Assembly (NCBI GenBank): GCA_903921365.1
Contig: CAIXPS010000014.1
Coordinates: 1-58,493, forward strand
Length of the DNA stretch: 58,493 bases
Source of the DNA: an uncultured bacterium
GTDB lineage: Bacteria; Chloroflexota; Anaerolineae; J036; Brachytrichaceae
Reading direction: 5' to 3'
Shown here piece by piece: positions 1,297 to 53,125 of the stretch. Numbering within the stretch: the first letter of the stretch is position 1; the number at the start of each line of letters is the position of its first letter. Under the pieces are notes generated by a model, which was not told where the DNA came from, made no database searches, and worked only from the letters and a program-made list of their open reading frames with translations. The translations under genes were made by a program, and so were the position numbers.

Positions 1297-2040
1297 ATGA
1301 ACAACGCGAGTAAACAAACAGCAGCCCCTGATTATGGCATCGATTTCCCCAAAGAGTTGCGTCGAAACGGGCTCTACGGGCTGGGCGGGGTCGCCATGGG
1401 CATCGTGCTGGCGTTGCTGGCAGCGGACGGCGCGTTGGGCATCGTATTGAGCACCGTGAGCCTTGTGAGCGGCATCCTGCTGATTGCAAATGTCGCAGTT
1501 TCGTTCTGGGGAAGCAGAAGCGGCAAGCTGCGCGTGCGCGACCAGATCATTGCCCAATTGCCATGGCGCGGTGACGAACAGGTGCTGGATATCGGCTGCG
1601 GACACGGTCTGATGTTGATCGGCGCGGCGCAACGCCTGACGACCGGCAAGGCGACGGGCATCGATATGTGGCTTCAGGAGAGCCAGTGGCACAACGACAG
1701 TGATGCGACGCTGGCCAATGCCTCGCTCGCAGGGGTTGGCGATCGCGTCACCGTCCGGCGCGCCGACGCCCGCGACCTGCCCTACGACAACAACGCATTC
1801 GATGTCGTGTTGTCCAGCTGGGTCATCCACACCATGACGGACCCGGATGACCGGGCGCAAGTGTTGAAGGAGATCGCTCGTGTCGTCAAACCCGGCGGGC
1901 GGGTGGTCATCGTTGACTTCGACTTTGTCAATGAGTATGTGAAACACTTCCGTGACAAGGACTGGAAAGACGTTCAGAAGGCCGGCCCAAATTTACTCTT
2001 TGTCACGCCCACCTATACGATGAGCGCCGTCAAGCCATAA
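1297..2040 (+). CDS. Class I SAM-dependent methyltransferase with N-terminal membrane segments
   Basis: A 247-residue protein. Residues about 25-70 form two hydrophobic helices (GLGGVAMGIVLALLAADGAL and the following stretch), so the enzyme is probably held at the membrane. The Rossmann methyltransferase domain follows: motif I VLDIGCGHG near residue 93, an acidic residue in the GIDMW strand, the RRADARDLPYDNNAFDVVLSS segment typical of the Methyltransf_11 family, and the late motif KPGGRVVIVDFDF. It transfers a methyl group from S-adenosylmethionine, but the acceptor is unknown. The ATG was chosen because homologous methyltransferases with membrane leaders begin at a similar distance; no strong ribosome site is seen. 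The gene ends just before a promoter region holding a PadR-like palindrome. Confidence 0.8.
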   Translation: MNNASKQTAAPDYGIDFPKELRRNGLYGLGGVAMGIVLALLAADGALGIVLSTVSLVSGILLIANVAVSFWGSRSGKLRVRDQIIAQLPWRGDEQVLDIGCGHGLMLIGAAQRLTTGKATGIDMWLQESQWHNDSDATLANASLAGVGDRVTVRRADARDLPYDNNAFDVVLSSWVIHTMTDPDDRAQVLKEIARVVKPGGRVVIVDFDFVNEYVKHFRDKDWKDVQKAGPNLLFVTPTYTMSAVKP

Positions 2041-2096
2041 CGAGCGGCGCATTCCGTTCGGTTCCGTTCCGTCAGGTGTGCGATGACAGGTCCTGA

Positions 2097-2113
2097 CATA
2101 TACTCAGTATGTG
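2097..2113. promoter_or_regulatory. PadR-type palindrome upstream of URO-D gene
   Basis: CATATACT-C-AGTATGTG is a near-perfect inverted repeat (7 of 8 pairs) just before the AGGAGG ribosome site of the URO-D-family gene. It shares the ATATACTCA core with the perfect palindrome over the start of the PadR gene at 10549-10575. It is read as a binding site for that regulator, which would tie this gene to the PadR protein. Confidence 0.5.
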
Positions 2114-2132
2114 CAGGAGGCATATACACATT

Positions 2133-3305
2133 ATGACAACGTCACGCGAACTAATCAATCAATTACTGCGCGGGAAAAAGGCCGAGCGCGTCGCTCTCGT
2201 GGATTCTCCCTGGGGCGACACCCTGTCTGCCTGGGTGCAGCAGGGCTATCCCGTGCGCAAGGAATACAAGGAAGTCGGTGAAGACCGCTGGTGCAGGGAA
2301 GACGGCCGCTGGATCGAAGCCACCGTCGCCGGGGAATACGAGGAACCCGTGCCGCCGTGGGAACATTTCGATTACGACATGGTCGGCATCGGCCCGTGGT
2401 TCGATGTCATGCCATTGCGCGATTACGAGGAAATGGTCGAAGAGACGCCAGAATGGGAGGCGAAACGGAATGGCGCGGGCGCTGTGCTGAAGTACTGGAA
2501 GCACAAGTCCGGCACGCCTGAACACATCGACTTCCGCATGGTCACGCGCGATATCTGGGAGCGCGACTACCGACCTTCCCTGCTTGAGCTTGACCCATTG
2601 CGCGTGGACCTGAAGGAGATGGCCAAAAACATCGCCACGGCCGCCAGCGCAAATAAGTGGGTGCACTATGGGCACATGTTCATCTGGGAGTCGATGCGCC
2701 AGAGCATGGGCGATATAACCTTGTACGAGAGCCTGTTGCTCGATCCTGAGTGGGTGCATGACTACAATCGGGTGTACACGGACTTTTACAAGAAGCACTT
2801 CGCCTACATGATCGAAAAGGCCGGCAAGCCTGACGGCATCTGGCTGTATGAAGACATGGGATATAAGAACGGTCTCTTTGCATCGCCAAAGGTGCTGGAG
2901 GAACTGATATTCCCGTATTACAAGGAGATGGTCGATTTCTTCCACGGGTATGATCTGCCGGTGATCCTGCACACGTGCGGCAGCACTGCGGCAGCGCTTC
3001 CTTTGATCGTGGCGGCGGGTTTCGATGGCCTGAACCCGATGGAACGCAAGGCGCTGAATAACGATCCATTCGTGTTTGCTGAGAAGTACGGCGACAAAAT
3101 CGCATTCGTCGGCGGGCTTGATGCGCGCGTATTCGAGACAAACGATCGTGACATCATCAAGCGCGAGGTGGCCTCTTACATCGACGGGATGAAAGCGCGC
3201 GGCGCCAGGCTGGTCTTCGCATCAGACCACTCGATCTCCCCCAACACCCACTACGCCAGTTACTGTTACGCGCTCGAAGTATACCGGGAGCACATGCTGT
3301 ATTAA
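2133..3305 (+). CDS. URO-D superfamily protein, putative corrinoid-type methyltransferase
   Basis: A 390-residue TIM-barrel protein of the uroporphyrinogen decarboxylase superfamily. It carries HTCG at residues 280-283, matching the HxC zinc ligands of methylcobamide methyltransferases (MtaA/MtbA) and not HemE. The closing part (FASDHSIS...) is typical of the URO-D-like proteins found in sugar-use loci. The true substrate is unknown; zinc-dependent methyl transfer is an inference. The start is the ATG at 2133, which has AGGAGG at 2115-2120; the in-frame ATG at 2109 lies before that site. A PadR-like palindrome overlaps the leader. A small helical protein gene follows after 7 bases. Four more proteins of this superfamily lie in the window. 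Confidence 0.85.
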   Translation: MTTSRELINQLLRGKKAERVALVDSPWGDTLSAWVQQGYPVRKEYKEVGEDRWCREDGRWIEATVAGEYEEPVPPWEHFDYDMVGIGPWFDVMPLRDYEEMVEETPEWEAKRNGAGAVLKYWKHKSGTPEHIDFRMVTRDIWERDYRPSLLELDPLRVDLKEMAKNIATAASANKWVHYGHMFIWESMRQSMGDITLYESLLLDPEWVHDYNRVYTDFYKKHFAYMIEKAGKPDGIWLYEDMGYKNGLFASPKVLEELIFPYYKEMVDFFHGYDLPVILHTCGSTAAALPLIVAAGFDGLNPMERKALNNDPFVFAEKYGDKIAFVGGLDARVFETNDRDIIKREVASYIDGMKARGARLVFASDHSISPNTHYASYCYALEVYREHMLY

Positions 3306-3312
3306 AAGCACC

Positions 3313-3762
3313 ATGGCCAAACAATCGGTTGATCCACTCGGCGCCTGGATGGCCTCATCCGGGACGATGATCGCTGCGGAAGTTGATTCCCGGCGTGAGG
3401 CGATCTGCGCCATGGTGAGCGACCAGATCATGGCCAGATATCCGATGCTATGTTACGACCCCACCCGTCCAGATGCTAGCGGGTTCCAACAGACCATGAT
3501 CCGTGGCACCCCGCAACGCATCCACGAGTTGATACAAGTGGTTCTTGGGCTGCAGTCACTGGGCAGCCTCAATGAAGAGTATCGCTGGTCATGGGGACTT
3601 TTGCCCCGTTATGGCGTCACCAGCGACCACCTGCTGAGCTTCATGCGCATCTACTTTGACGCCGTCAGAGATAAGCTGAAGCTCAGCAGCGAAGACCGCG
3701 CTGGTTTAGATCTATTGGAACAGGCCATCACCCAGCGTATCGCAGAAATTACAGCGAAGTAA
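3313..3762 (+). CDS. Small helical protein paired with URO-D gene
   Basis: A 149-residue, mostly helical, soluble protein without signal peptide. It lies 7 bases after the URO-D gene, so the two are almost surely co-transcribed. The stretch WGLLPRYGVTSDHLLSFMRI followed by two more amphipathic helices aligns by eye with the 138-residue protein at 34650 (shared pattern WG, LP, GV, H, L, FRI, D, RD, L). The overall helix pattern recalls the N-terminal helical domain of RsbR-type stress regulators, but this is only a resemblance. Function unknown; a partner or sensor for the neighbouring URO-D or corrinoid proteins is possible. Its last 14 bases overlap the end of the convergent isomerase gene. 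Confidence 0.7.
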   Translation: MAKQSVDPLGAWMASSGTMIAAEVDSRREAICAMVSDQIMARYPMLCYDPTRPDASGFQQTMIRGTPQRIHELIQVVLGLQSLGSLNEEYRWSWGLLPRYGVTSDHLLSFMRIYFDAVRDKLKLSSEDRAGLDLLEQAITQRIAEITAK

Positions 3763-4585
3763 GCCCTATCTCCCCGGCGACGCGGCGCACCTGCGCCGCA
3801 GCCAGGTCATACTCGCCGGCAGATGGCAAATGCTCAAGCATCAGCGGCACATCCGCGTCAAGTTGACTTAACTCAGACAGGAAAACACGGTAATCCAGTG
3901 CGCCTGTCCCAATGCGCGCCTCATCCAGATGCACCGTGAGCTTGCCGCTTAACAGGATATCTTTCGCGTGGCAGCTCTTGATGTGCGCGCCAAACAAGCG
4001 GAAGCACTCGCGCACAAGATCAGCGTTGTTGAAGTAGCGTTGCGGGCTGCAGATCAGGTTGACCGGGTCCAGATGGGCGGCAAACTGCTTGCGATCCACC
4101 GCCTTGATGAGATCCGCATACGATTGCGGCGAGTCCGGGTACATCCACGGCATCGTCTCCAGCGTGTAGAACGCTCTACCGGGCTGTGCGGCATCAATGA
4201 TCTCGCGCACCACATCCACGATCAGGTCGAACGTCGCCACAGTCAGGTTTTCGGGGTGTGGCCCGTCCCACTGCGCGCCGCATGAGCCACTGATATTGAC
4301 ACAACAGCGGGCTCCAATGCGATCTGCGAGCGCCAGGCGGCGTTGGCACAGCGCTATGGCGTCCTTGCGCGTCTTGTCGTCAGGGCTCATCGGATTGCTC
4401 CACGCGCCGACTTCGGCAATCACGATATCTGCCGCGGCGGCCGCAGACGCGTAAGCCTGCAACACCTCATCCGTCGCGTCATCGCCGGCGGGGCAGTAAG
4501 CGGCGCGATAACCGAGCCGTTTAACTGCCGCCGCCCACTCGTCGGGATTGGTATATTTCTCAAAGACAGGGCCACCCAGTCTCAT
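3749..4585 (-). CDS. Sugar phosphate isomerase/epimerase-like TIM barrel protein
   Basis: A 278-residue protein of the xylose-isomerase-like (AP endonuclease family 2) TIM-barrel fold. Visible signs are CVNISGSCG in the middle of the barrel, YTLETMPW (metal-binding Glu), AAHLDPVNLI, IKSCHAKDI (His, Asp) and the closing LMLEHLPS (Glu). These are the usual divalent-metal ligands of the family. It probably interconverts a keto and aldo sugar or epimerises one; the sugar is not identifiable. An AGGAGA site precedes the ATG. It is downstream of the arabinofuranosidase and the zinc dehydrogenase on the same strand, so it probably acts on the sugars they release or oxidise. Confidence 0.85.
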   Translation of the reverse strand: MRLGGPVFEKYTNPDEWAAAVKRLGYRAAYCPAGDDATDEVLQAYASAAAAADIVIAEVGAWSNPMSPDDKTRKDAIALCQRRLALADRIGARCCVNISGSCGAQWDGPHPENLTVATFDLIVDVVREIIDAAQPGRAFYTLETMPWMYPDSPQSYADLIKAVDRKQFAAHLDPVNLICSPQRYFNNADLVRECFRLFGAHIKSCHAKDILLSGKLTVHLDEARIGTGALDYRVFLSELSQLDADVPLMLEHLPSAGEYDLAAAQVRRVAGEIGLTSL

Positions 4586-4632
4586 GTCAGTTCTCCTTTT
4601 GGATGCGAGATATTATGGACAGCTCAGTGTCC

Positions 4633-5676
4633 TTATGGATTGATGACGATCTTGTTGCGATCCGGTGTGCCCATGACAGCCATCGCCTCATGGATGCGCT
4701 CCAGCGGGAAGCGGTGCGAGATGATCTTCGACACAGCCACCAGCCCGCGCTCCATCAAGCGGATCGATTTCGACATCGCCAGCGGGTTGGTGCCGAAGCT
4801 GGCATCCATGCGCCCTTCGAGGAAATGGGTGTAACCGCCGTCGAGTTCAAAGGTCTCGTGCGTGGTGATGCCGAACACATTCCACTTCGTGCCGCGCCGG
4901 CGCAGATCGACCATCAACTTGACGGCCTGGATCGGCCCGGCCGCCTCGACGATGATATCGGGCCCACCCGGCATGATCTCATACACGCGCTTTTTCGCGT
5001 CTTCCTGCGCCGGGTTGACGCCGTGCGTCGCCCCAAGCGCTAGCGCATTCTTCAAAGCGTAATCGCTGTTGTCGATCGCGATCAGCCGGCCTGCGCCGGC
5101 CGCGCGCGCAACCATCATGCACAATAGCCCGATGCTGCCCACGCCAATGACGACGACATCATCCCCCACTTTCATCTCGCTGTAGTGGATCACGCCCTTC
5201 CACGCGCCGGAGAGCGGTTCGGTCAACGCCGCCACGTCAAAGCTCAGGCTGGCGGGTTTATGGAACACGCTCGTGTCCTTTGTGCGCATGTACTGCGCAA
5301 AGGCGCCCGGCAACACCCGAACCGGGCCGTCGCCGCCGGTCGTGAACGCGTTCTCACAGTAGTGAGTATTGCCGATGCGACAGTTATCGCAATAGCCGCA
5401 GTATCCCGATGGCATCACGATCACTTCGTCGCCGGGCTTGAAGTGCGTCACGCCAGGGCCGACCTCCGCGATGACGCCGCTCGGTTCGTGGCCGGGGATG
5501 AAGGGGAAATTCACGTTGCGGCGAATGCCCTTAATGGCTTTGTAGTCGGTCGCGCATATGCCGCATGCCTTAATGGCAACGACGACATCGCCATACTCAG
5601 TCGCATGTGGAACTGGAACCTGTTCGAGCCTGAGATCGTTAAAATCGTGCAGCACCGCCGCCAGCATCGTATCCAT
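4633..5676 (-). CDS. Zinc-dependent medium-chain alcohol/polyol dehydrogenase
   Basis: A 347-residue MDR-family enzyme. Catalytic zinc ligands are seen in CGICATDYK and GHEPSG; the structural zinc site is complete (CGYCDNC and a fourth Cys in THYC). The NAD(P)-binding motif is GVGSIGLL near residue 178. It resembles threonine, sorbitol or xylitol dehydrogenases of the same group and probably oxidises a secondary hydroxyl of a sugar or polyol. It sits between the GH51 arabinofuranosidase and a sugar isomerase on the same strand with short gaps, which fits a role in pentose use. A GGAGGAT stretch lies just before the ATG. The exact substrate cannot be read from sequence. Confidence 0.88.
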   Translation of the reverse strand: MDTMLAAVLHDFNDLRLEQVPVPHATEYGDVVVAIKACGICATDYKAIKGIRRNVNFPFIPGHEPSGVIAEVGPGVTHFKPGDEVIVMPSGYCGYCDNCRIGNTHYCENAFTTGGDGPVRVLPGAFAQYMRTKDTSVFHKPASLSFDVAALTEPLSGAWKGVIHYSEMKVGDDVVVIGVGSIGLLCMMVARAAGAGRLIAIDNSDYALKNALALGATHGVNPAQEDAKKRVYEIMPGGPDIIVEAAGPIQAVKLMVDLRRRGTKWNVFGITTHETFELDGGYTHFLEGRMDASFGTNPLAMSKSIRLMERGLVAVSKIISHRFPLERIHEAMAVMGTPDRNKIVINP

Positions 5677-5726
5677 ACTATCCTCCAGATCAAAATAACA
5701 TATCGGCGTCCTTGACTTTTAGCGCT

Positions 5727-5738
5727 CTAAAGGACTCC
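5727..5738 (-). repeat. Dispersed repeat, copy at end of GH51 gene
   Basis: On the minus strand GGAGTCCTTTAG. It matches the core of the repeat found at 11719, 12761, 13559 (three times), 17732 and 53907. Here it encodes the last residues Gly-Val-Leu and the stop codon of the arabinofuranosidase. Confidence 0.65.
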
Positions 5739-7595
5739 GTGCAATACGGTCACTGAATAAGGCGGAAACTGGTATTCGATTATTCCGTCTCGCATCGCCA
5801 GGGTTGCCTCGCGCGGCGCGACATGATCCTTCTCCACAAAACTGTTGACCGCATCTAGTCCTGTCCCTGCAAGCGACCATGCCTGACAGGTCATAGAGGA
5901 TCGGTCAGTGGTCGGCCACTCAATCGCGCGAGCCTCCGCATTGCCTGTGTAGTTAACCACAAACAGCGCAATCTCGCCATCCGCTTCGCTGCCGCGACGG
6001 GTGGCGGCAATATCAAGCACCTCATCGCTTGCCGTCGCAACGACCAGCGCCCTGTCACCAGCGAAGTTCGCGTAAGCCTGTTGGACGTAATAGGTCGGCG
6101 TGAAGTACATGTCAGACGGGCTGGTCTGCAGGACGCCGCTGTTGCAACTGTTGGTCATGTTCGAGCGGTTGGCAATGCGGATAATCTCCCCGTGGCGCTG
6201 ATACAGGTTGAACATGCGCGCCGCGTTCAGCGCATTAAAGAGCGTCAACAGCCACGCGCGCGCCCAGCCCCAGTGGCCGCCGGTGTGATTCCACTCGGTC
6301 ACGGCGATCTTCAACGCCTTGTTCCGGGCGTGGTCGTGGATCTTGCGCTCAAGCGCGACAAGTTCACGCTCGACATCCCCGGCATAAGGGGTATAAATAT
6401 GCGGGCACACATAGTCGATTTCGTCCGACAGATCGAACAGGATGTTATCGGACGGATACGACGCCATAAGCGTCAGTTGCGGGTAACGGTTGCGAATCGC
6501 GCGCGCAGTGTCCACCATGCGCTGCTCATATTCCTCGCCGGCCTGCTCATTGCCAATCTGCCAATATTGGACGTTAAATGGCGCCGGATGACCCATCGCG
6601 GCGCGCGCGCTGCCCCACCGCGAGGCGACGGGGCCGTTACAGTACTCGATCTCCTCCAGTATCTGTTCGACGGTGGCCGAGTTGGAATTCAGACAGATCA
6701 GCGGTTGGGCGCCCACCAGCTCGCAGAATTCGAGAAACTCTTGCAGCCCGACATCGTTCTCCTCCCGATTGCCCCAGGGCTGATTGACAAACGGCGCGCG
6801 TCGTTCACGCGGGCCGACGCCGATTCGCCAGTCATAGTAGATCAGCGACGACCCGCCAAACCGGATGATGCCCGGCTTGAGCGCGCGAATGGCCTCGACT
6901 ACATCGGGACGCCACCCGCGCCGGTTATCCTGCGGCATGAGTGACACCTTATCGACCCAGAACGTCCCCGGTTGCGAGGCCACAATCGCCAGTGTCGCGC
7001 CGTCATCAGTTGTGTCTGGTGTCAGGACGCCCGTATACCGCGCCCATTCAGTGGTGATCACCTCACAGGTCATGACTGCATACGCTCGGAAGAAAGCGCC
7101 ATAATTGCGCCCCAGCATGACGCTGACCGACGAGCCGGGTGTCACATTGCTGCGAAGATACATCCCAACATCCAGCGCCTGCCCTTGCTTTACCGCAACG
7201 CCATCTTGCGCGATCCCGGCAACAAAGGATGTCCCAGCGGCTGCAGTAACAGTTACTCTGGCCGAATGCGCGCCGACAAACGCGTTCAGCGGATCGAGGT
7301 CAACTGTCGCGTGGGCATCGACCATCTCAAGTTCTCCAGGGCGCTCCGGCCAATGGTCAAACCGGGGCACCGCGGCGGCCAGCGGACGCCAGCGCGGGTA
7401 GACCCAGTTTTGTCCGGGTGGATAGACCTGTTGCGGTTGCAGGACGCCCTCAAACGAACGATCCTGCACCTTCTCAGCCCACATGCCGGGGAGCAGGTCA
7501 TTCAGCGGCTCGATGAACTCACCGTAGATCAACGGGGAAAGGGTCGCCGCTGACCGTTGTTCAGAACCAACAATAATGTGACGGCTCTCCGGCAT
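5727..7595 (-). CDS. GH51-type alpha-L-arabinofuranosidase
   Basis: A 622-residue enzyme of the GH51 family. It has an early LIYGEFIEPLND segment, a carbohydrate-binding-like beta domain near residues 100-220, then the barrel with RFGGSS, the acid/base region QIGNEQAGEEY and the nucleophile region VTEWNHTGGHW, and a closing beta domain. It removes terminal arabinofuranose from arabinoxylan or pectin side chains. No signal peptide, so likely cytoplasmic. The ATG at 7595 was chosen because GGAGG lies five bases before it; the frame runs 11 codons further up without such a site. The last codons and the TAG stop are supplied by a dispersed repeat (5727-5738). Confidence 0.9.
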   Translation of the reverse strand: MPESRHIIVGSEQRSAATLSPLIYGEFIEPLNDLLPGMWAEKVQDRSFEGVLQPQQVYPPGQNWVYPRWRPLAAAVPRFDHWPERPGELEMVDAHATVDLDPLNAFVGAHSARVTVTAAAGTSFVAGIAQDGVAVKQGQALDVGMYLRSNVTPGSSVSVMLGRNYGAFFRAYAVMTCEVITTEWARYTGVLTPDTTDDGATLAIVASQPGTFWVDKVSLMPQDNRRGWRPDVVEAIRALKPGIIRFGGSSLIYYDWRIGVGPRERRAPFVNQPWGNREENDVGLQEFLEFCELVGAQPLICLNSNSATVEQILEEIEYCNGPVASRWGSARAAMGHPAPFNVQYWQIGNEQAGEEYEQRMVDTARAIRNRYPQLTLMASYPSDNILFDLSDEIDYVCPHIYTPYAGDVERELVALERKIHDHARNKALKIAVTEWNHTGGHWGWARAWLLTLFNALNAARMFNLYQRHGEIIRIANRSNMTNSCNSGVLQTSPSDMYFTPTYYVQQAYANFAGDRALVVATASDEVLDIAATRRGSEADGEIALFVVNYTGNAEARAIEWPTTDRSSMTCQAWSLAGTGLDAVNSFVEKDHVAPREATLAMRDGIIEYQFPPYSVTVLHGVL

Positions 7596-10590: not shown

Positions 10591-11661
10591 TCAAGGCAAA
10601 AGAGGGCTGATTTCGCGCATCCGCGCAAGCCAGCGCTTTGACTCGTCGAGTGACTCACCCAGCAGGTTGAAGATAAACCGTGTGCCGGCGGGCGCATGCT
10701 GGATGAGGTATTCGGTATCCTCAATGGATACCCACCCCAGAACATGCACCGGCCCCTCAGTCCCGCCCAATGGCTCCAGGATTGTGTTGTAGCCATGCCG
10801 CGCAGCCACCCGATTAAAGGCGTAGAAATGCGGGACTTTCTTGAATGATTCAAACTGATGTTCGGCGTCGGCGCAGCAATGCATCGCCAGGCTGCCAAAG
10901 GTCTGCGACAGATCAACCAGCTCCGGCAGACAAAACTCCTCAAACATGCGTGTGCTCATCACGCCGCATTCGTCGTTTGAGACCCACGGCCCCAGCTCAG
11001 GGGGGCACCACACCGCCGGGCAGTGGCAGGTGCTGCTGTGTGGGAATTCCTTGCGAAACTCGGTCAGGAATGCCTTGAGCAGGATGGCGCATTTGTCCGC
11101 GAGGCGCTTCACCGCCTCCTTTTCCTCCGGATCGGTCATGGCCTGCAGGAAACCCTCTTTGTTCCAGACCAGCGCAGCCGTGTCGAAGCCCGTTTGTATA
11201 TCTGCCGGCCCGAGCCAGACATCTTTCCCCAGTTCCGACTGGACGGCATGAGCAAGCTCAAAGACCCGGTACAGCGTTGGGGATGTCCAGATGCTGGGCT
11301 GTTCGAGGCGATCCGCCTCATCCGCTGTCCACACGAGGGGCTGCGCGGCCGCATTCGTATCGGTGTAGCGATGCACCTGGCAGCCAAAGGCGGCAGCATA
11401 AATGTGCGTGCCTGTCGTCAGCCGCGCGCACGGGACGTTGTCGTCCCCTAGCATTTCGGTGTACTGCACCTGGCGCATGTAGTTTTCAACTGTCTGAGGC
11501 GCCCAGTTCTGCGCTGGCTTATCCGACAAGGTATAGTCGTAATCGGGATGATCTGTGCACCCCAACTGTGGGGGCGTGCAGACAAAGCCATGTCTCTGGA
11601 GCGGACCTTTGTTGAAGATGTTCCGCAAGAAGTGCTCGTTTCGCGTCGTTTGTTCACTCAT
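10591..11661 (-). CDS. URO-D superfamily-like protein, divergent
   Basis: A 356-residue protein with the URO-D superfamily pattern: N-terminal FLRNIFNKGPLQRHGF, a central region with long helices, EFCLPELVDLSQTFG and LAMHCCADAEHQF, where HCCA (His at residue 261) stands at the place of the HxCG metal motif of corrinoid methyltransferases. The remainder (GTRFIFNLLGE, then closing helices) also fits the barrel end. Length is normal. Reaction and substrate are unknown. It lies just upstream of the PadR gene in the same direction, 30 bases apart, and is divergent from ctaA. The ATG has only a weak upstream AGGTG. Confidence 0.7.
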   Translation of the reverse strand: MSEQTTRNEHFLRNIFNKGPLQRHGFVCTPPQLGCTDHPDYDYTLSDKPAQNWAPQTVENYMRQVQYTEMLGDDNVPCARLTTGTHIYAAAFGCQVHRYTDTNAAAQPLVWTADEADRLEQPSIWTSPTLYRVFELAHAVQSELGKDVWLGPADIQTGFDTAALVWNKEGFLQAMTDPEEKEAVKRLADKCAILLKAFLTEFRKEFPHSSTCHCPAVWCPPELGPWVSNDECGVMSTRMFEEFCLPELVDLSQTFGSLAMHCCADAEHQFESFKKVPHFYAFNRVAARHGYNTILEPLGGTEGPVHVLGWVSIEDTEYLIQHAPAGTRFIFNLLGESLDESKRWLARMREISPLLP

Positions 11662-31197: not shown

Positions 31198-32454
31198 TCA
31201 TGACACATAGTGTTCGACCACCGCCATCGCCAGCTTCTCCCATGCCCACAAACGCTGCGGATCATTGCGCACCGTCGAGATATCCTTCATGATGATCTCC
31301 ACGTGACAGCCCCTGGCCTTATCGAGAAACGCCGTCAAGTCCTCGCGCGCAGTTTCCGGGTTAAACACGTCTGTCGCCAGCACGGCGGGGCTCGGCTTGC
31401 GCGACATCACATAGTCCCCGCCAATCTCCTTGATCGCGCGGTCGACGTTGACCCACGGGCTGGTGGATACTTTGCGCAGGTTCGGGATTCTGCGCAAGAT
31501 GCCCATCTTCACGTCAAGCGGCTCACAACAACCATAATACGTGATGCCCCAGCGTTGCAGCCAGCGCATCTCGTGTTTGAGCGCAAACTCCCAGTGCATG
31601 CGCGGTGAGACAGACCCGAATATCTGCGCCGTGGCGCACCCCCACAGGTTAGCCGTGTGCGGATGCGACGGATCGAGTGTCTCGCCCGGTAACTGGGATG
31701 TGTAGCCATACCCGCCCGATCCAATGCGCGTGTTGTCATCGTTGCGCGTCAGCAAGTTTAACTCCTCCCACTGGTCGAGTTCGCACAGGTAGGCATCCAC
31801 CAAGCGCGTGATTGCCGCTTCAACCATTTCAGGGCGATCAACCAGATCGCGCATGGCATCTTCGACGCCCCACCAGCGCACCAGTTCATCCCATGGCGCA
31901 AACCAGCGCCCCTTGATGCCCACTTTGCACACCGGCAGGATATCGGCAAAAATGCCGCTCATAAGATCAAACCGCGCATCAGTCTCAGCGCGATCGTGCG
32001 TCACCCGCGGCATCTGGATCTTCTCGACATCCTCAGGATTGACGATAAGCGGGTGAAAATGGCGCGAGACCACCTCGCTGGTCTCGCTGGTGCGAACGAT
32101 ATCCACATCCTCCTGCAAGCCAAAACCGCTGCTGTGAATGACGAGTGGGCAGGCGATGTACTCATCGACGACCATGTCGGCGGGCAGGTGACGCCATTGA
32201 TACAGCAGGCGGCGCAAGTCAGTCTCGATCCCCTGCGCCCACGCGTCGTCGCATTGCAGCGTCAACTCGTCAGCGACATTCATCTCATTCCAGCAAATCT
32301 CGTTGATCCAGACCATCGGGCGAACCGATTCGCGGTCGTTCAACCGGCGCCACATCTCCGCCTTCTCGCGGTGTGCCGGCAGTCTGGCGATGGCGGCTTG
32401 TTCCGCCGCCAGGCGGCGTAGAATCTCTCGATCGTGGTTGGAAATGGTCAACAT
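31198..32454 (-). CDS. URO-D superfamily-like protein, long divergent member
   Basis: A 418-residue protein of the URO-D superfamily by overall layout: LAAEQAAIARLPAHREKAEMW, RFDLMSGIFADILPV, the helix WVNEICWNEMN early on, and WGITYYGCCEPLDVKMGILR, where the HxCG motif is replaced by YGCCE with Cys at 309 and 310. KLAMAVVEHYVS ends the barrel. Two adjacent Cys could still bind a metal. Function unknown; the family includes corrinoid-linked methyltransferases. The ATG at 32454 has GGGAG six bases before it, which sets the start; the frame is open for a further 49 codons upstream. It is divergent from another URO-D gene, 147 bases apart. Confidence 0.75.
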   Translation of the reverse strand: MLTISNHDREILRRLAAEQAAIARLPAHREKAEMWRRLNDRESVRPMVWINEICWNEMNVADELTLQCDDAWAQGIETDLRRLLYQWRHLPADMVVDEYIACPLVIHSSGFGLQEDVDIVRTSETSEVVSRHFHPLIVNPEDVEKIQMPRVTHDRAETDARFDLMSGIFADILPVCKVGIKGRWFAPWDELVRWWGVEDAMRDLVDRPEMVEAAITRLVDAYLCELDQWEELNLLTRNDDNTRIGSGGYGYTSQLPGETLDPSHPHTANLWGCATAQIFGSVSPRMHWEFALKHEMRWLQRWGITYYGCCEPLDVKMGILRRIPNLRKVSTSPWVNVDRAIKEIGGDYVMSRKPSPAVLATDVFNPETAREDLTAFLDKARGCHVEIIMKDISTVRNDPQRLWAWEKLAMAVVEHYVS

Positions 32455-32476
32455 GGGTCTCTCCCGCAAAGCGTAA

Positions 32477-32550
32477 CGTGATCTGATGTCACGGATTATT
32501 GTATGACCACACGCGCAATGTGGGTAGTGGATCGACGCGCGACGCGCGTC
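32477..32550. promoter_or_regulatory. Two inverted repeats between divergent URO-D genes
   Basis: CGTGA (32477-32481) with TCACG (32489-32493), and the stronger GACGCGC (32534-32540) with GCGCGTC (32544-32550). They lie in the shared 147-base promoter region of the two URO-D-family genes and may be regulator sites. They do not resemble the PadR palindrome. Confidence 0.4.
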
Positions 32551-32601
32551 ACAACGGTATCGGGTGTACATTAAACCCATCTGACAGTAAGGAGGACGCA
32601 A

Positions 32602-33729
32602 ATGAGCAAAGCTCTCGCAAAGATCGCGCGGTTACGCACCGCATTAAGACATGAGGAGCCGGACCGCGTGCCGGTGGGCGAGGCATTCTGGACCGGTTTC
32701 CTGTTGCGTTGCAAGGCCAAGTGGGGGCCGGGCTTTGATCCTTATCGCCATTTCGACCTCGACTACGTCACGGTCGTGCCCAACATGGATCCGCGCATCC
32801 AGCCCTTCGAGGTGATCTCACAAGATGGCGACGACATCGTCGTCAAGACCGGCTTCGGCGCGACCATCCGGCGTTCCGGACGCCTGCCGATGCCGCATTT
32901 TGACTCCTTCTCTGTGCAGCAGCCTGAGGGAATGGCCGGCTTCGTCTTTGACGACCCCGCCGATCCACGCCGCTTCTTCCAGGGCGGCGACGATCAGCTC
33001 AACTGCGTCGGCGATGCGCTCAGCCGCAATATCGCGTCGTGGCAGGATCGCCTGACGCCCTACCTCGATGACTTCGCGGTGTTCGGCGGCACATGCGAAC
33101 CCTATGAGTATCTGTGGCGCATCATCGGCAGCGAGAACGCCCTCGTGTGGATGGCCTCGGAGCCTGAGATGTTCGACGCCTTCGTGAACCGCGTCGGCGA
33201 GTGGCTGCTGGCATTCACCCGCGCTCAGATCGTCGCGGGCACCGGGCGGTTGTCCGGCATGATGATCTACGGCGACGTAGCGTACCGGCGCGGGATGCTG
33301 TTCAACCCGAAGCGCTGGCGCGAGATGTTCAAACCGCACGTCAAGGCGCTGATCGACGCGTGTCATGAGGCCGGGCTGATGGTGATCTATCACGGGTGCG
33401 GCAACGCCAGCCGGATTTACGACGACTTGGCTGAGATCGGGCTGGACGGCTATAACCCATTGGAGGCCAAGGCCGACCTCGACGTGGTGGAACTGAAGAA
33501 ACAGTATGCGGGCCGTCTGGCGTTTGTCGGCAACGTCGACGTGCGCATCCTCGAACGAGGCAACCCGGACGAGATCCGGCGCGAGGTGCTCTACAAGCTG
33601 CAGGCGGCCAAAGGCGGCGGCTGGGTGTTCCAGTCCGACCACTCCATCAGTTGGGATGTCGCGCCGGAGAGTTATGAACTGGCGACACGGATACTGCGAG
33701 AGAACGGGGAGTATCCGCTGAAGATTTGA
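32602..33729 (+). CDS. URO-D superfamily protein, putative corrinoid-type methyltransferase
   Basis: A 375-residue protein starting with LRTALRHEEPDRVPVGEAFW, a typical URO-D-like opening. It has HGCG at residues 264-267 (VIYHGCGNASRIYDDLAEIG), equal to the HxC metal motif of MtaA/MtbA-type methyltransferases, then DGYNPLEAKADLDV, AFVGNVDVRILERG and VFQSDHSISWDVAPESY. It is clearly related to the protein at 2133 (both share DG.NP, VG..D.R and SDHSIS). The third cysteine ligand of the classical enzymes is not obvious. AGGAGG lies six bases before the ATG. It heads the direction of the cobalamin-binding protein gene that follows after 210 bases. Confidence 0.88.
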   Translation: MSKALAKIARLRTALRHEEPDRVPVGEAFWTGFLLRCKAKWGPGFDPYRHFDLDYVTVVPNMDPRIQPFEVISQDGDDIVVKTGFGATIRRSGRLPMPHFDSFSVQQPEGMAGFVFDDPADPRRFFQGGDDQLNCVGDALSRNIASWQDRLTPYLDDFAVFGGTCEPYEYLWRIIGSENALVWMASEPEMFDAFVNRVGEWLLAFTRAQIVAGTGRLSGMMIYGDVAYRRGMLFNPKRWREMFKPHVKALIDACHEAGLMVIYHGCGNASRIYDDLAEIGLDGYNPLEAKADLDVVELKKQYAGRLAFVGNVDVRILERGNPDEIRREVLYKLQAAKGGGWVFQSDHSISWDVAPESYELATRILRENGEYPLKI

Positions 33730-33840
33730 GATTGGAGATTGGCCGAAAACGCATTGCAATCTATGACTTACATAAGAATTGAGGCGAAAGAACAGTAGTG
33801 AGTCTCAGGATATATAATGACGCAATAGTATTGCCATCGA

Positions 33841-33878
33841 GGTTACTCGCGCGTAACCTTGGAATGTGCGGCAATTCC
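33841..33878. promoter_or_regulatory. Inverted repeats upstream of CarH-like gene
   Basis: GGTTAC-TCGCGC-GTAACC (33841-33858) is a perfect 6-bp-arm inverted repeat, followed by GGAAT...ATTCC (33861-33878). They lie in the 210-base gap before the cobalamin-binding protein gene and are candidate operators for that operon. A promoter was not pinned down. Confidence 0.4.
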
Positions 33879-33939
33879 GCCCTGATTGGATCCTTGCTGG
33901 AATCTATCACACACCGAGTGGACTATGGAGAATTCTACA

Positions 33940-34608
33940 ATGAGCACAAGACTCGATTTACCAAACGCGCAGTTCGCCACGCTGCAATATGCCTACCTCG
34001 AGGCAATGAAACTCGGAAGCGGGCGCGCGGCGGACAAGGTGCTGCAAAATGCCCTTGACACAAAGATAACGGTCAACGACATCTATCTTGATCTCTTTCA
34101 ACCCACCGGTTACGAGATTGGCAACCTTTGGCAGCGCAATGAGTTCACAGTTGCCCAGGAACACCTCGCAACGGCGATCATCGAACGTCAGATGGGCGAG
34201 ATGCATCCTTACTTTCGCCCACTGCAGGAAAAATCAAAAACACTCGTCATTGGCTGCGTGGATAAAGAACAGCACCGCGTTGGCGCGCGCATGGTTGCCG
34301 ACTTTTTTGAACAGGACGGCTGGACTGTGTATTACCTCGGCGCAACAGTTCCCACCGAGCATTTCATTTCGATGGCTAAAGAAGTGAAAGCCGACCTGAT
34401 CGGATTGGCGTCGCAGTTGATCTACACCCTCCCCGCAGTGTCCGAGTTTATCCGGGAACTAGATCGAAAAGGCATGGGCGGCATCCCGGTCATGGTCGGC
34501 GGAATGGCGCATGCACAGCAACCCCAACTGGCCAAAAGCCTGGGAGTGCGGTTTTCCGCCGTCGATGCGCGCGAAGCCGTTCGATTAGCCAACGATCTTT
34601 TTGTGTAA
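33940..34608 (+). CDS. CarH-like cobalamin-binding sensor domain protein, no DNA-binding domain
   Basis: A 222-residue protein made only of the four-helix cap and the B12-binding Rossmann domain. The cap has W64 and E74-H75 (W, nine residues, EH), the motif with which CarH-type photoreceptors hold the adenosyl group. The B12 domain has VDKEQHRVGARMV with H112 as likely lower cobalt ligand, then VYYLGATVP and a closing GGMAH loop. The spacing W to lower His is close to that of CarH. Methyl-carrier corrinoid proteins have the DxHxxG form and lack this EH motif, so a sensor is more likely. The residue after W64 is Gln, not the His used by photolysed CarH. It starts at ATG 33940 (GGAG upstream) in an operon with a GGDEF regulator and kinase. 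Confidence 0.85.
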   Translation: MSTRLDLPNAQFATLQYAYLEAMKLGSGRAADKVLQNALDTKITVNDIYLDLFQPTGYEIGNLWQRNEFTVAQEHLATAIIERQMGEMHPYFRPLQEKSKTLVIGCVDKEQHRVGARMVADFFEQDGWTVYYLGATVPTEHFISMAKEVKADLIGLASQLIYTLPAVSEFIRELDRKGMGGIPVMVGGMAHAQQPQLAKSLGVRFSAVDAREAVRLANDLFV

Positions 34609-34649
34609 TCAGCCCGCACACTGCACCCCTGATAACTTGAAGGTGAGAT

Positions 34650-35066
34650 ATGTCTGACCCGAATGACTTTCCGGAAGTTTCTGCCGGCACACTCGCGCGT
34701 TTTGAAGCGAACCGAACACTCATCGTGAGCGAAGTCGTTGAGCGATCCATGCGGCGCCAGGAGGAAGTAGTTCAGCACGGCGAAAAGGCGCGCCAGGCGG
34801 TCACGACCGGACTGGACTTTACGACCAAAGCACTGGGCATTGCGATGCAATTGCACAACGGGGAGATGTTGAAGCAGCAATTGGTGTGGGGGGCTGATCG
34901 TCTGCCGCATGACGGCGTAGCGCTACAGCACATTCTCACGCGCTTTCGCATTCTGGAGGACGTGATTCGCGATACCCTCGCACCCGCAGATGCTGAAGCG
35001 GTAAATCACTATGCTGACTATATGATCGAACTGCAAGAAGAGTTCATGAAATCAGCGATCCCGTAG
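34650..35066 (+). CDS. Small helical protein paired with cobalamin sensor
   Basis: A 138-residue soluble, all-helical protein. Its core WGADRLPHDGVALQHILTRF and following RILEDVIRDTL align by eye with the protein at 3313 (WG, LP, GV, H, L, FRI, D, RD, L), so the two are probably paralogous, each next to URO-D or corrinoid genes. GAAGGTGAG lies four bases before the ATG. It sits between the CarH-like gene (41 bases) and the GGDEF regulator (17 bases) on the same strand. No known family can be named with certainty; a linker between the sensor and the regulator or kinase is a reasonable guess. Confidence 0.7.
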   Translation: MSDPNDFPEVSAGTLARFEANRTLIVSEVVERSMRRQEEVVQHGEKARQAVTTGLDFTTKALGIAMQLHNGEMLKQQLVWGADRLPHDGVALQHILTRFRILEDVIRDTLAPADAEAVNHYADYMIELQEEFMKSAIP

Positions 35067-35080
35067 AGTTGGTTCAACTC
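35066..35080 (+). promoter_or_regulatory. Hairpin before the GGDEF regulator start
   Basis: GAGTTG-GTT-CAACTC is a perfect 6-bp stem directly between the stop codon of the helical protein (35064-35066) and the ATG at 35084. No ribosome site is seen there, so the hairpin may affect translation of the regulator or mark coupling to the upstream gene. Confidence 0.35.
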
Positions 35081-35083
35081 CCC

Positions 35084-36961
35084 ATGGAAAAAGCAACTAT
35101 CCTGATTGTTGACGACGAGGAAAACGTAGTGCGTTCCTTGAGTCGGACGTTGCGCGACCAATACCATGTGCTAACAGCCACATCCGGCGAGGCGGCGCTC
35201 GAAATTGCGGCGCGTGAGGATATTGCCGTTATCCTGACGGATCAGCGCATGCCCGGATTGACCGGAGTTCAGCTTCTGGAGAGGGCAAAAAAGACGCGTC
35301 CAAACACGGTCGGCATCCTGATCTCTGGATACTCAGATGTGACTGCGCTCATGGATGCGCTAAACGTGGGAGTTGTCCGTGGTTATATTCCCAAGCCATG
35401 GGACACCGAAGAATTGCGCCAGAAGCTGAACAGCGCAGTGCAACAATTTGAGGCAGTCATCAACGAGCATGAATTGCTGCATAGCACCACAGAATCGGTT
35501 GTGCAAGCCCGCGAACAGATGGCGGAGTTTCGCAAAATATTCGATCTGGTGTCTGCGGGTGAAATCGGCAATGTATTTTCTAACGCGGAAGGGAAGTTAA
35601 CCGCCTTCACCCCGCTTACCGGTCAACTGCTCAATCGCGAGTTTCTCGATCATCTATCGGATGGATTTGCCCTTATCCGTGAGAATGGGACAATCGACTA
35701 CTGCAATTCGGCGTGCCGCAAGATGCTTGCACTGGATTACCCGACGAACGCCGAGTTTTTCAGTGTGCCGCGTCTCAGAGACTGTGCGCCGCTGGTGAAA
35801 GCCCTGCAGTCGGCCTTTCATGGCAGTCCCGGACATGCAGAATTCTTCCTGATAAATCGCAACGGTGACAAGTCTTATCTTGAAGCAGCGGCAACACCGA
35901 TCGTTGACCCCAATAAAGGCAACAACGCCGTCATCATCGTCCGCGATCAAACCGAACGGCAACAAAACCTGGCGCACCTGAAAGGGTTGAGCGCTGTGAC
36001 AGAGGCGATTGTGCAGACCCTGGACTTTGATCAGGGCTTGCCATTAGTGCTTGCCGCCTGCTGCGAAGCCGTGCAGGCTGATGGATGCTACCTCTATTTT
36101 GTGGATGCGCAGACAAAAGACCTGCATCTGGCTGGCGCAATAGGATTAAGCGCAGAGATGGTCGAGTTTCTCAAGCAAAACCCGCTCCCCATGGGTAAAG
36201 GCCTGACTGGACAGGTTGCGTTAACGGGCGAACCGAATGCTATTGTCAGGGTACAGGATGCGACGGTGGCATATCCTGCACAAGTTGCAAAGGAACACAT
36301 TGTTTCTACCGCTATGGCCCCGCTGCGCGACCAGACCGGAATTTCGGGAGTGATTGGTGTTACTTCTCAGGCGCTACGCAAGTTCTCTGATGCGGAAATC
36401 AAACTCCTGTCATCCATTGGGAGTCAGGTCGGCATGGCGTTGCGTATTGCGCGCCTGCTTAATCTGCTCCGTGAGCAAGCGCATATAGATGGTTTGACTG
36501 GTTTATTTAACCGTCGCTACTTTATGGAATTAGCTGAGCGTGAATACGCGCGCTCACAGCGTCATCATTCGTCCCTGGTTGCGTTGATGCTGGATATGGA
36601 TCGCTTCAAGCAAATCAACGACGGACATGGACATGCGATTGGCGACCAGGTGCTACAGGCTGTCGGTTCAGTGCTCGCCGCTGGCGTGCGTTCGATTGAT
36701 CTCGTCTGTCGTTACGGCGGTGACGAATTTGCCGCATTGCTGCCCCATTGTGAAGAAACTGAAGCACGGCAAGTCATCGAACGTTTACAGCAACGCGTGA
36801 GCGAGATTCAAATCCCAACCGCCAGCGGCGCGATTTCTGTGGGCGTCAGCATTGGATCGGCAACGGCATCACAGGCATCCGAGGATTCTTTGGACGCGCT
36901 CTTTATTCGCGCCGATGCCAGGATGTACGAAGTGAAAACCAAAAAGAGATTGGGGCAATGA
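35084..36961 (+). CDS. Response regulator with PAS, GAF and GGDEF diguanylate cyclase domains
   Basis: A 625-residue protein. Receiver at residues 1-120 with acidic pocket IVDDEE, phospho-acceptor D53 (VILTDQRMPG) and YIPKPWDTEEL; a coiled linker; a PAS domain near 190-310 (GFALIRENGTIDYCNSACRK); a GAF domain near 320-465 (LPLVLAACCEAVQADGCYLY); and a GGDEF domain with YGGDEF at 544-549. The inhibitory RxxD site (RSID) lies exactly five residues before GGDEF, so the enzyme should make c-di-GMP and be product-inhibited. Phosphorylation by the overlapping kinase probably controls it. PAS and GAF may sense more signals. Confidence 0.93.
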   Translation: MEKATILIVDDEENVVRSLSRTLRDQYHVLTATSGEAALEIAAREDIAVILTDQRMPGLTGVQLLERAKKTRPNTVGILISGYSDVTALMDALNVGVVRGYIPKPWDTEELRQKLNSAVQQFEAVINEHELLHSTTESVVQAREQMAEFRKIFDLVSAGEIGNVFSNAEGKLTAFTPLTGQLLNREFLDHLSDGFALIRENGTIDYCNSACRKMLALDYPTNAEFFSVPRLRDCAPLVKALQSAFHGSPGHAEFFLINRNGDKSYLEAAATPIVDPNKGNNAVIIVRDQTERQQNLAHLKGLSAVTEAIVQTLDFDQGLPLVLAACCEAVQADGCYLYFVDAQTKDLHLAGAIGLSAEMVEFLKQNPLPMGKGLTGQVALTGEPNAIVRVQDATVAYPAQVAKEHIVSTAMAPLRDQTGISGVIGVTSQALRKFSDAEIKLLSSIGSQVGMALRIARLLNLLREQAHIDGLTGLFNRRYFMELAEREYARSQRHHSSLVALMLDMDRFKQINDGHGHAIGDQVLQAVGSVLAAGVRSIDLVCRYGGDEFAALLPHCEETEARQVIERLQQRVSEIQIPTASGAISVGVSIGSATASQASEDSLDALFIRADARMYEVKTKKRLGQ

Positions 36962-38187
36962 ATCCCCCGGCGTTCGCCCTGTTTGAGCAAATCCAGATTG
37001 TCATGCTGACCATGAGTCTGGATATGTCATTGACCTCTCTCAATCCGGCAGCGGAACGTCTTTTCGCGCGTCCGGCATCCGAGCTGTTAGGACGGGCCTT
37101 TACCACGGTGCTTGATCCGTACAGCCATGCAAAAGGTGTGCTCATGCTGGAACGCACACTGGCAGACGGCTGCGTGACTGAATGGGAGCTGGATCACATC
37201 CAACCGCATGGGCCTCCAGTGCTGGTGGGATACACGACAACGGTGCTCCGCAATGAGGCTGGCGAGGCGATTGGCCTTGGCGCGGTCGGACATGATCTCA
37301 CCGCGAAGATGGAACTGACGGCAAAGCTCGCGGAGACAAACCAGCAATTCGAAGGGGCGTTACTCCAACTGGAGAAAGCGCACAGCCAGTTGAAAGCGGC
37401 GCAAACCCAGCTGGTCCAATCCGAAAAGATGCGCTCACTGGGACAGATGGTTGCGGGCGTCGCGCACGAGATCAACAATCCAGCCGGATTTGTCGCAAAC
37501 AACCTGACGGACCTGGCGCGCCGCACGCCGCGTCTGCGCGCATTGTTCGACGCCTACGCGCCGCTCAAGTCCAACGCCGATTCCAGCCAGCGCGCCGCGA
37601 TTGAACAGGCTGAAACAGCTGCGGAAATCGAATACCTATGGCAGGATCTGCCCGATCTGGTGAAGGAAAGCCAGGACGGCATCGAGCGCATCCGCCAGAT
37701 CGTCCTCGCACTGCGCAACTTTGCCCGCCTGGATGAAGCAGTGCTCAAGGTATCCGACATCAATGAAGGCTTGCGAAACACGTTGCGGATCATTCGACCA
37801 CAGTGCAAGGACCGCATCACGATCACTGAGGAACTCGGCGAACTGCCAAAGACGTTGTGTTACCCCGGCGAGTTGAACCAGGTCTTTCTCAACTTGTTGA
37901 TCAACGCGGTTCAGGCGATTGAGGGACAAGGACGCATCTGGGTGACCAGCCAATATCGCCATAACGTTATCACAGTGTCAATCCGCGATGACGGCAAAGG
38001 AATGGACGCCGTTACGCTGGCGCGACTGGGCGAGCCCTTCTTTACCACCAAAGCGGTCGGTTCGGGCACGGGGTTGGGGCTTGCCATTTGTTACGGCATC
38101 GTGGAACGGCATGGGGGACAACTCAGATTTGAAAGCGCGTCCGGGCGCGGAACGACTGCGGCAGTTGAAATCCCAGTGCCAGTTTGA
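36958..38187 (+). CDS. Soluble PAS-histidine kinase
   Basis: A 409-residue kinase without membrane spans. A PAS domain at residues about 5-125 (MSLDMSLTSLNPAAERLFAR), a coiled helix near 125-160, then H170 in MVAGVAHEINNPAGFVANNL (phospho-His), and the ATP-binding domain with NLLINAVQAIEG (N box), IRDDGKGMDA and TGLGLAICYGIVERHGG. All catalytic boxes are present. It overlaps the GGDEF regulator by 4 bases (ATGA), so the two are a cognate pair. As a soluble kinase in the operon with the cobalamin sensor, it may be driven by protein contact inside the cell. The C-terminal end lies in a 55-base tandem duplication. Confidence 0.93.
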   Translation: MNPPAFALFEQIQIVMLTMSLDMSLTSLNPAAERLFARPASELLGRAFTTVLDPYSHAKGVLMLERTLADGCVTEWELDHIQPHGPPVLVGYTTTVLRNEAGEAIGLGAVGHDLTAKMELTAKLAETNQQFEGALLQLEKAHSQLKAAQTQLVQSEKMRSLGQMVAGVAHEINNPAGFVANNLTDLARRTPRLRALFDAYAPLKSNADSSQRAAIEQAETAAEIEYLWQDLPDLVKESQDGIERIRQIVLALRNFARLDEAVLKVSDINEGLRNTLRIIRPQCKDRITITEELGELPKTLCYPGELNQVFLNLLINAVQAIEGQGRIWVTSQYRHNVITVSIRDDGKGMDAVTLARLGEPFFTTKAVGSGTGLGLAICYGIVERHGGQLRFESASGRGTTAAVEIPVPV

Positions 38188-51910: not shown

Positions 51911-51977
51911 TGCGATTCTGTGTCTGTGCGTTGGGCGCGTGACGCAGGAAGCCCTCTGCTGTCGTCCACCGGTTTCA

Positions 51978-52013
51978 GATGGGGGTCTATACTCCCTTGT
52001 ATGGACCCCCATC
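51978..52013 (+). promoter_or_regulatory. Strong 15-bp hairpin over the URO-D start codon
   Basis: GATGGGGGTCTATAC (51978-51992) pairs with GTATGGACCCCCATC (51999-52013) in 14 of 15 places plus one U-G pair, leaving a six-base loop. The ATG of the following URO-D gene (52001) is inside the stem. In RNA this would hide the start codon. A terminator of the GH13 gene is the alternative, but there is no T run. Confidence 0.6.
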
Positions 52014-53125
52014 ATTTCCCTTATGATCGATTCCAGTCCGTCAAACAAGAAAAAGAGCAGCGCCTGATCGAGTTTCTGAACGCCCCGACGGCGGCTGACG
52101 TGCCCGTCATCGTGCGCGCGCCTTGCAACGTATGGGGCAAGGTGTCGCGTTATCGCGAGCAGTCGCTCGAACTGCAACTCGATGCGCTGGCGCTCTCGCT
52201 CGATATCCCCTCTGACTTTCTGTTTTCCTACCTCGAACCGTGGCACGGCGTGGGCGTGTTCGCGAACATCTTCGGTTGTCCGGTCAACTGGAATGATTAC
52301 GATGCGCCGCAGACCTATTACCGCTACCACACGGTTGACGAACTCAGCGACCTGAAGCGACCGAATATCATGGACAGCGAACTGGCGCAGATGGTGATCG
52401 AGTCCATCCGATACTTCCGGCGCGTTACCGGCGATGCGCTCGATATCTCGTTGACCGACACGCAGAGCCCCAATGACTCGGCCAGTCTGATCCTCGACAC
52501 GTGCGAATTCTTCACGGCCGGGCTGGTGGACTCTGAGCGCATCGCGCCATTGATGGATATGGTGACCGATGTCATGATCGACTTCTCCGACATGCAACTG
52601 GAAGCGCTGGGTTTGACCGCCACCCGACCCGGCCACATCATGCCGTCTGCGCGCGGACTCACGGGCATCTCGATTTCTGACGACAATATGGCGGTCATTT
52701 CCGCGCCTTGCTATCGCAATTCGGCGTTGCCCTACAACAATCGCCTGAGCGAGCATTTTGGCGGGATTGCTGTGCATACCTGCGGGAACTTTATCCAGAA
52801 CTACGGCGTCGTAAAACAGATCAAAGGCCTCGCCATGATCGACTGCGCATTGTCGGGCGCGGACCCGACGCCAAACAACCCCGTAAAACTGGGCGCCGCA
52901 TTTGCCAATACCGGCATCACGATCAAAGCCCGCATCGGTATCGAAGAGGAGCATTGGAGCGCACTCGACGACTTGATCCGACCCGATCTGAAGTTAATTA
53001 TTCAGGTGGAGTCGGATGGCAACGTCGCCAATGCCAGTCGCGTCTATGAGAAGCTGAAGACCCGCTGCCGCGAGATCATGACCCGCAAGCGCAACGCGCC
53101 CGTCGGGGGATACAGTGGAGGATGA
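52001..53125 (+). CDS. URO-D superfamily protein, putative corrinoid-type methyltransferase
   Basis: A 374-residue protein. It contains HTCG at residues 259-262 (IAVHTCGNFIQNYGVVKQIK), equal to the HxC metal motif of corrinoid methyltransferases, with FANIFGCPVNWNDYD and ILDTCEFFTAGLVDSE before it and IVIKARIG-like strands after it. The start is uncertain. The ATG at 52001 lies within a strong hairpin; an in-frame GTG exists at 51920 right behind the GH13 stop. Function unknown as for the others of this family. The next SDR gene begins just behind its stop, so the two are a pair. A relic of this gene lies at 46880. Confidence 0.82.
   Translation: MDPHHFPYDRFQSVKQEKEQRLIEFLNAPTAADVPVIVRAPCNVWGKVSRYREQSLELQLDALALSLDIPSDFLFSYLEPWHGVGVFANIFGCPVNWNDYDAPQTYYRYHTVDELSDLKRPNIMDSELAQMVIESIRYFRRVTGDALDISLTDTQSPNDSASLILDTCEFFTAGLVDSERIAPLMDMVTDVMIDFSDMQLEALGLTATRPGHIMPSARGLTGISISDDNMAVISAPCYRNSALPYNNRLSEHFGGIAVHTCGNFIQNYGVVKQIKGLAMIDCALSGADPTPNNPVKLGAAFANTGITIKARIGIEEEHWSALDDLIRPDLKLIIQVESDGNVANASRVYEKLKTRCREIMTRKRNAPVGGYSGG

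Follow-up and report, generated by a model that had tools for sequence, protein, structure and literature searches.

The B12 photoreceptors known so far either bind DNA or are fused to enzymes. In CarH, the His next to the cap Trp caps the photolysed cobalamin, which gives a bis-His state. Photocobilins are built from a B12 domain fused to a globin; examples are SasPcob from Saccharothrix syringae and AbDPcob from an Acidimicrobiaceae bacterium (PMC10979010). Light of 530 nm alters the shape of photocobilins loaded with adenosylcobalamin (AdoCbl), which then stimulate diguanylate cyclase more than tenfold in cis; they also act in trans (AbDPcob; PMC10979010). SasPcob has Gln at the position of the CarH His, and its light state is water-ligated, not bis-His. 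The role of stand-alone photocobilins has been described as less clear. In the pre-2 clusters of Myxococcales, a separate B12-binding protein and a BBAG-2 globin are encoded side by side (PMC10151467). Adjoining separate B12 and globin genes (PMC10151467) and photocobilin-diguanylate cyclase fusions are, then, already known.

The window analysed here is the whole stretch of 58,493 nucleotides from an uncultured member of the Anaerolineae (Chloroflexota; GCA_903921365.1, contig CAIXPS010000014.1). It carries a four-gene run with the following features:

33940..34608, + strand: 222-aa B12-binding protein, one half of the split photocobilin-type receptor, with a four-helix cap and Rossmann domain (PF02607/PF02310; best PDB matches 8j2w/8j2x)
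34129-34131, + strand: W64, cap motif of the B12 protein
34132-34134, + strand: Q65, the residue directly after W64
34159-34164, + strand: E74-H75, cap motif of the B12 protein
34273-34275, + strand: H112, lower-ligand His position
34650..35066, + strand: stand-alone globin of the photoglobin/phycobiliprotein class, 138 aa (fused to a B12 domain in 12 genomes; its profile leads to allophycocyanins)
34809-34811, + strand: G54 of the globin, at the bilin-Asp position
34887-34889, + strand: W80 of the globin, equivalent to the corrin contact W296 of SasPcob
35069..36961, + strand: response-regulator diguanylate cyclase, REC-PAS-GAF-GGDEF (Pfam, motif positions, orthologue in the same place in locus L009)
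36689-36700, + strand: I-site RSID of the cyclase
36716-36730, + strand: GGDEF motif of the cyclase
36958..38187, + strand: soluble PAS-HisKA-HATPase histidine kinase (Pfam, intact boxes, orthologues in receptor-bearing genomes)
37465-37467, + strand: H170 of the kinase, in HisKA HEINNP

The four genes run in one direction and are spaced by 41, 2 (or 17) and -4 bases, so that 33940-38187 forms one unit; a promoter and terminator scan gave signal at chance level. The positions and domain make-up given for these genes in the first-pass annotation were all confirmed. That annotation had begun the unit at 32602, with a URO-D gene (32602-33729, PF01208). We left this gene out, because 210 bases separate its end from the B12 gene and no counterpart was found in the related loci compared. 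Genes that look URO-D/methyltransferase-like lie at 2109-3305, 10591-11661, 31198-32601, 32602-33729 and 51920-53125 of the window, amid sugar-degradation genes; the comparison with protein families covered 31198-32601 (no Pfam match) and 32602-33729 (PF01208).

The locus resembles the photocobilins SasPcob and AbDPcob (PMC10979010) in its W-x9-EH and E/DxH motifs, its photoglobin-class globin and its link to a diguanylate cyclase. It differs from them in that the receptor is made as two proteins, the bilin Asp and Cys are replaced by Gly and Val, K109 stands in GxxH, and the signal would leave by way of a histidine kinase and its REC partner. The side-by-side genes recall the Myxococcales pre-2 clusters, but those have a bilin reductase, a haem oxygenase and a biliverdin-binding globin (PMC10151467), whereas here a kinase and a REC-cyclase follow and no haem oxygenase was found. 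With CarH/LitR the B12 protein shares the adenosyl pocket and the lower-ligand His, while it has no MerR domain and no His for a bis-His state, and it has an extra globin partner.

The B12 protein matched PF02607 (E 2.5e-13) and PF02310 (E 3e-19) and nothing else above the Pfam cut-off, in agreement with the earlier remark that no MerR-type domain is present. Its best PDB sequence matches were photocobilin entries, 8j2w/8j2x of SasPcob (E 4e-24) and 8j2y, with CtMerR and CarH ranking lower. An AlphaFold model was weak to moderate (pLDDT 56); its top Foldseek match was again 8j2w, which we take as support only. The description of this protein as a CarH-like sensor lacking the DNA-binding domain was thus right as to a domain of the B12 photoreceptor type without MerR, but its nearest kind is photocobilin and not CarH. 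Reading of the motifs gave G61-N-L-W64-x9-E74-H75 and E110-Q-H112, so the cap motif and lower-ligand His noted before were upheld. It had also been pointed out that Gln replaces the CarH His. Gln65 does follow W64, but it is not an anomaly, as SasPcob too has Gln there; the likeness to this water-ligated receptor argues for photocobilin-like photochemistry, not for a dead sensor. Three of the four elements of the SignatureFinder signature for light-responsive cobalamin domains (GxxW, EH, GxxH, GxxxP) were present as GNLW, EH and GATVP, and K109-E-Q-H112 replaces GxxH, the Gly of which makes its contact via the backbone. The host genome encodes an AdoCbl-forming adenosyltransferase (PF01923), and the B12 protein would probably bind this cofactor.

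The second protein of the run had been annotated simply as helical. It is present, in place and 138 aa long, but its identity could be read only from profiles, since single-sequence searches were insufficient: as a single query it matched only Phycobilisome in Pfam, below threshold, and nothing in the PDB. A three-sequence profile had matches in 15 of the 400 Chloroflexota genomes sampled, and in 12 of them the matching segment was the C-terminal part of an ORF some 350-450 aa long. The N-terminal part of these ORFs was 51-61% identical to the window B12 protein, and their later part was 26-35% identical to the helical protein (E down to 1e-21). A profile of eight fusions aligned with SasPcob 8-318, through its globin, with E 1.8e-38. 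The globin-only profile, made from 14 members including that of the window, found allophycocyanins in the PDB (E 2.6e-5) in a list of almost all phycobiliproteins, and Pfam Phycobilisome was matched in six of the 14. Judged from these fusions and profile matches, the helical protein is the globin half of a photocobilin, of the phycobiliprotein class. An AlphaFold model built on two sequences was of low quality (pLDDT 48), and that it has five helices, as a five-helix globin would, is no proof. Of the weak single-sequence matches of this protein to ORFs of about 550 aa in the class, the one inspected (L013) was a chance match to GroEL, and a weak globin-profile match at 3529-3684 of the window lies in a frame broken by stops.

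The B12 and globin domains, fused in those 12 genomes, are two ORFs 41 bases apart in the window. The split form was found at three loci: the window, L009/L036 (genome G237) and L035 (G193). A tree built from the B12 domains placed these split forms within the fused ones (97/97) and the MerR-type domains outside, suggesting that the window receptor probably arose when a fused gene came apart. Conservation of gene order, proposed earlier as a check, was borne out for the receptor pair: a scan of genome contigs returned one relative, the Anaerolineales MAG G237, in which (L009) the B12 protein is 79% and the helical protein 64% identical with the order kept, far beyond chance. L009 also has a cyclase orthologue (58% identical) at the corresponding position. 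The gene that immediately precedes the B12 gene there (1924-5880) encodes a large protein read from its sequence as HD-GYP, with a C-terminal REC 51% identical to that of the cyclase, so that the split receptor of G237 is flanked by c-di-GMP-breaking and c-di-GMP-making enzymes. MerR-B12-globin proteins of the same class (L007 771-2156 on G000:C347, L049 and L050) likewise join a B12 domain to a C-terminal globin related to that of the window (hhalign 97.7%), but they carry a MerR DNA-binding domain, absent from the window protein, and form a separate clade. They look like CarH-like regulators with a photoglobin tail, and L007 has the CarH-type W-H pair. A second MerR-B12 protein of the host (L005 1292-2335, G000:C330) has ER instead of EH in the cap and is perhaps not light-responsive.

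Downstream, Pfam and motif reading agreed with the annotated REC-PAS-GAF-GGDEF cyclase and soluble kinase. In the cyclase (35069-36961) the REC Asp (of TDQRMP), the GGDEF motif and the I-site (RSID-x5-GGDEF) are intact. The kinase consists of PAS, HisKA (HEINNP, H170) and HATPase domains, and its H, N and G boxes are all preserved. A phospho-acceptor His and a REC Asp are thus both present, and the pair is conserved. Full-length orthologues of the kinase were found in G237 (67%), G193 (63%), G615 (62%), G621 (58%), and G308 and G640 (47-48%), and in the remaining receptor-bearing f71 genomes the orthologue was found in two fragments that span the PAS half and the kinase half. An orthologue with both PAS and kinase half occurred in 13 of 13 receptor-bearing genomes and in G635, where no receptor was detected, i.e., in 14 of the 400 genomes of the phylum sample; five further matches in this sample covered the kinase half only, at 34-40%. 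The co-occurrence of kinase and receptor gave a Fisher value of 1.6e-23, uncorrected for shared ancestry.

As for position, the kinase gene is close to that of the receptor in the window, L035, L056 and L060, and adjacent to a REC protein in L056, L060, L065, L067 and L074. In G507, G621 and G640 the kinase and REC pair is either a long way from the receptor or on a different contig. In G237 the kinase gene is the last on its contig side and the receptor contig is itself broken off, an arrangement consistent with adjacency but no proof of it. The REC domains of L056 and L060 were about 50% identical to that of the window and those of L035 36-46%, but the remainder of the protein differs: REC is joined to GGDEF in the window and in G237, to a kinase in G193, and to an unnamed helical region in the f71 genomes. 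The REC proteins of about 300-330 aa paired with the kinase are L056 6690-7655, L060 9540-10532, L065 484-1452, L067 2875-3852 and L074 2636-3517; their helical C-terminal regions look similar across the five, and a Pfam scan of two of them named no family for this region. The earlier proposal that the output is phosphorylation and c-di-GMP consequently holds as regards association with a kinase and a REC protein, which are conserved with the receptor, but less so for c-di-GMP, since GGDEF was present in only two of the genomes examined. By sequence comparison, receptor, kinase and REC form the conserved core, to which GGDEF adds an output specific to a lineage.

The host, which belongs to the Anaerolineae, is probably phototrophic; phototrophs are known in this class. 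PufL and PufM were found at G000:C266:8127-9762 (L079) with E values of 3e-78 and 1e-73, and the contig that carries them is like that of the window in GC and tetranucleotide composition (r 0.964). A reaction centre was also detected in all five f71 genomes tested, and none was detected in G237 and G193, which carry the split pair. The fused receptor gene adjoins a DNA photolyase gene in two genomes of one genus (L058 7960-10670 and L059 6302-8921).

We consider it fairly probable that the locus encodes a split photocobilin-type receptor through which green light, by way of AdoCbl, controls the kinase and the REC-diguanylate cyclase; light sensing and the relay are proposed by analogy with the published photocobilins. 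The globin would dock through its invariant W80 on the exposed corrin edge of the AdoCbl-binding cap/Rossmann protein. In the dark, the adenosyl group, stacked on W64 and held by E74-H75, would keep the receptor as a closed head-to-tail dimer. Light in the green (about 530 nm) would break the Co-C bond, so that adenosine leaves and the E74-H75 helix moves, and the product would be a water-ligated Co(III), with no bis-His light state because Gln65 replaces the CarH His. The altered B12/globin complex would then act on the co-encoded soluble PAS kinase by protein-protein contact, and the kinase would set the phosphorylation of REC and with it the activity of the REC-PAS-GAF-GGDEF protein, leading from light through phosphotransfer to c-di-GMP. 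The globin would serve as transducer or lid, probably bilin-free. Some points speak against the scheme: K109 departs from the light signature, the kinase has a PAS domain of its own that may respond to something else, the kinase and REC pair is remote from the receptor in G507, G621 and G640, the REC output varies between genomes, and no reaction centre was detected in G237 and G193.

Whether the globin holds a second chromophore bears directly on this scheme. W80, invariant among the members, aligns with AbPcob W289 (SasPcob W296), a residue that contacts both corrin and bilin. The CxRD bilin motif is absent: V51-T52-T53-G54 stands at the aligned place, with V51 at the Cys position and Gly54, invariant in 14 globin members, aligned with the Asp of allophycocyanin CxRD and with AbPcob H263, the counterpart of the bilin-ligating SasPcob D270 (counted from W289). 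This register comes from the ungapped alignment with AbPcob and from the alignment with allophycocyanin, SasPcob being aligned with a three-residue insert here. A receptor with sensitivity to red as well as green light, in which the globin takes biliverdin or another tetrapyrrole from outside or from an unrecognised enzyme, would agree with the bilin-binding class to which the globin belongs and with the BBAG-2 globins, which adjoin B12 proteins and bind biliverdin without CxRD (PMC10151467). We regard it as very unlikely, because both bilin positions are replaced, AbPcob with an altered Asp binds biliverdin poorly, and neither of two haem oxygenase families (PF01126, PF14518) was found in the host genome. 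On these grounds B12 is probably the only chromophore and the globin probably works without bilin.

The same complex could instead report the supply of AdoCbl (bound versus apo) to the kinase, with light being incidental. The non-classical GxxH (K109), the difference in AbDPcob cyclase activity between apo and AdoCbl forms, and the presence of the split pair in G237 and G193, where no reaction centre was detected, would suit such a cobalamin-level sensor; but the adenosyl pocket is complete as in proven photoreceptors, the closest characterised relatives are light sensors, photolyase genes neighbour the fused receptor (L058, L059), and the f71 relatives and probably the host are phototrophic, so we judge it unlikely. 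Another possibility, in our opinion distinctly unlikely, is that the GGDEF protein is the direct target of the receptor, much as AbDGC is activated by AbPcob in trans, and that the kinase is a second, independent input. A photocobilin does activate a separate diguanylate cyclase in vitro and the cyclase gene adjoins the globin gene in two genomes, but the kinase was found in all receptor genomes examined and GGDEF in only two. Finally, the URO-D-like gene just upstream and distant matches to MtbC/MtgC models might suggest that the B12 protein is a corrinoid protein carrying methyl groups for the URO-D/MtaA-like enzymes encoded nearby, a role that the first-pass annotation had named as fatal to its proposal. 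The evidence went against it: scores were far below the NCBIfam cut-offs for MtbC, MtaC and MtgC, the true carriers of the same genome (L001, L002) show DLHDIG and no W-x9-EH, and the URO-D gene lies beyond the 210-base gap and is not conserved in the related loci compared. We therefore rejected this identity as hardly credible and keep the split, light-sensing receptor as the preferred reading.

Our literature search, which did not extend to the main photoglobin survey (Schneider 2022), found no photocobilin with a dedicated kinase and REC protein and no split form free of the bilin motif; nothing relevant came up on B12 photoreceptors linked to a Chloroflexus histidine kinase, or to two-component systems and c-di-GMP. 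What may be new, and we put it forward tentatively, is a two-component system with B12 photoreceptor input in trans, in which a bilin-free split photocobilin uses its globin as a pure transducer from photolysed cobalamin to kinase and governs c-di-GMP in a phototrophic member of the Chloroflexota, the output domain having been swapped between lineages. The locus offers a specific partner set, one kinase and one REC protein, conserved across two Chloroflexota groups. The natural separation of the receptor halves makes the job of the globin measurable, and the locus would be a case for a globin of the phycobiliprotein class working without bilin. If the preferred reading is true, phototrophic Chloroflexota would gain a green-light sensor tied to phosphotransfer and, in some of them, to c-di-GMP.
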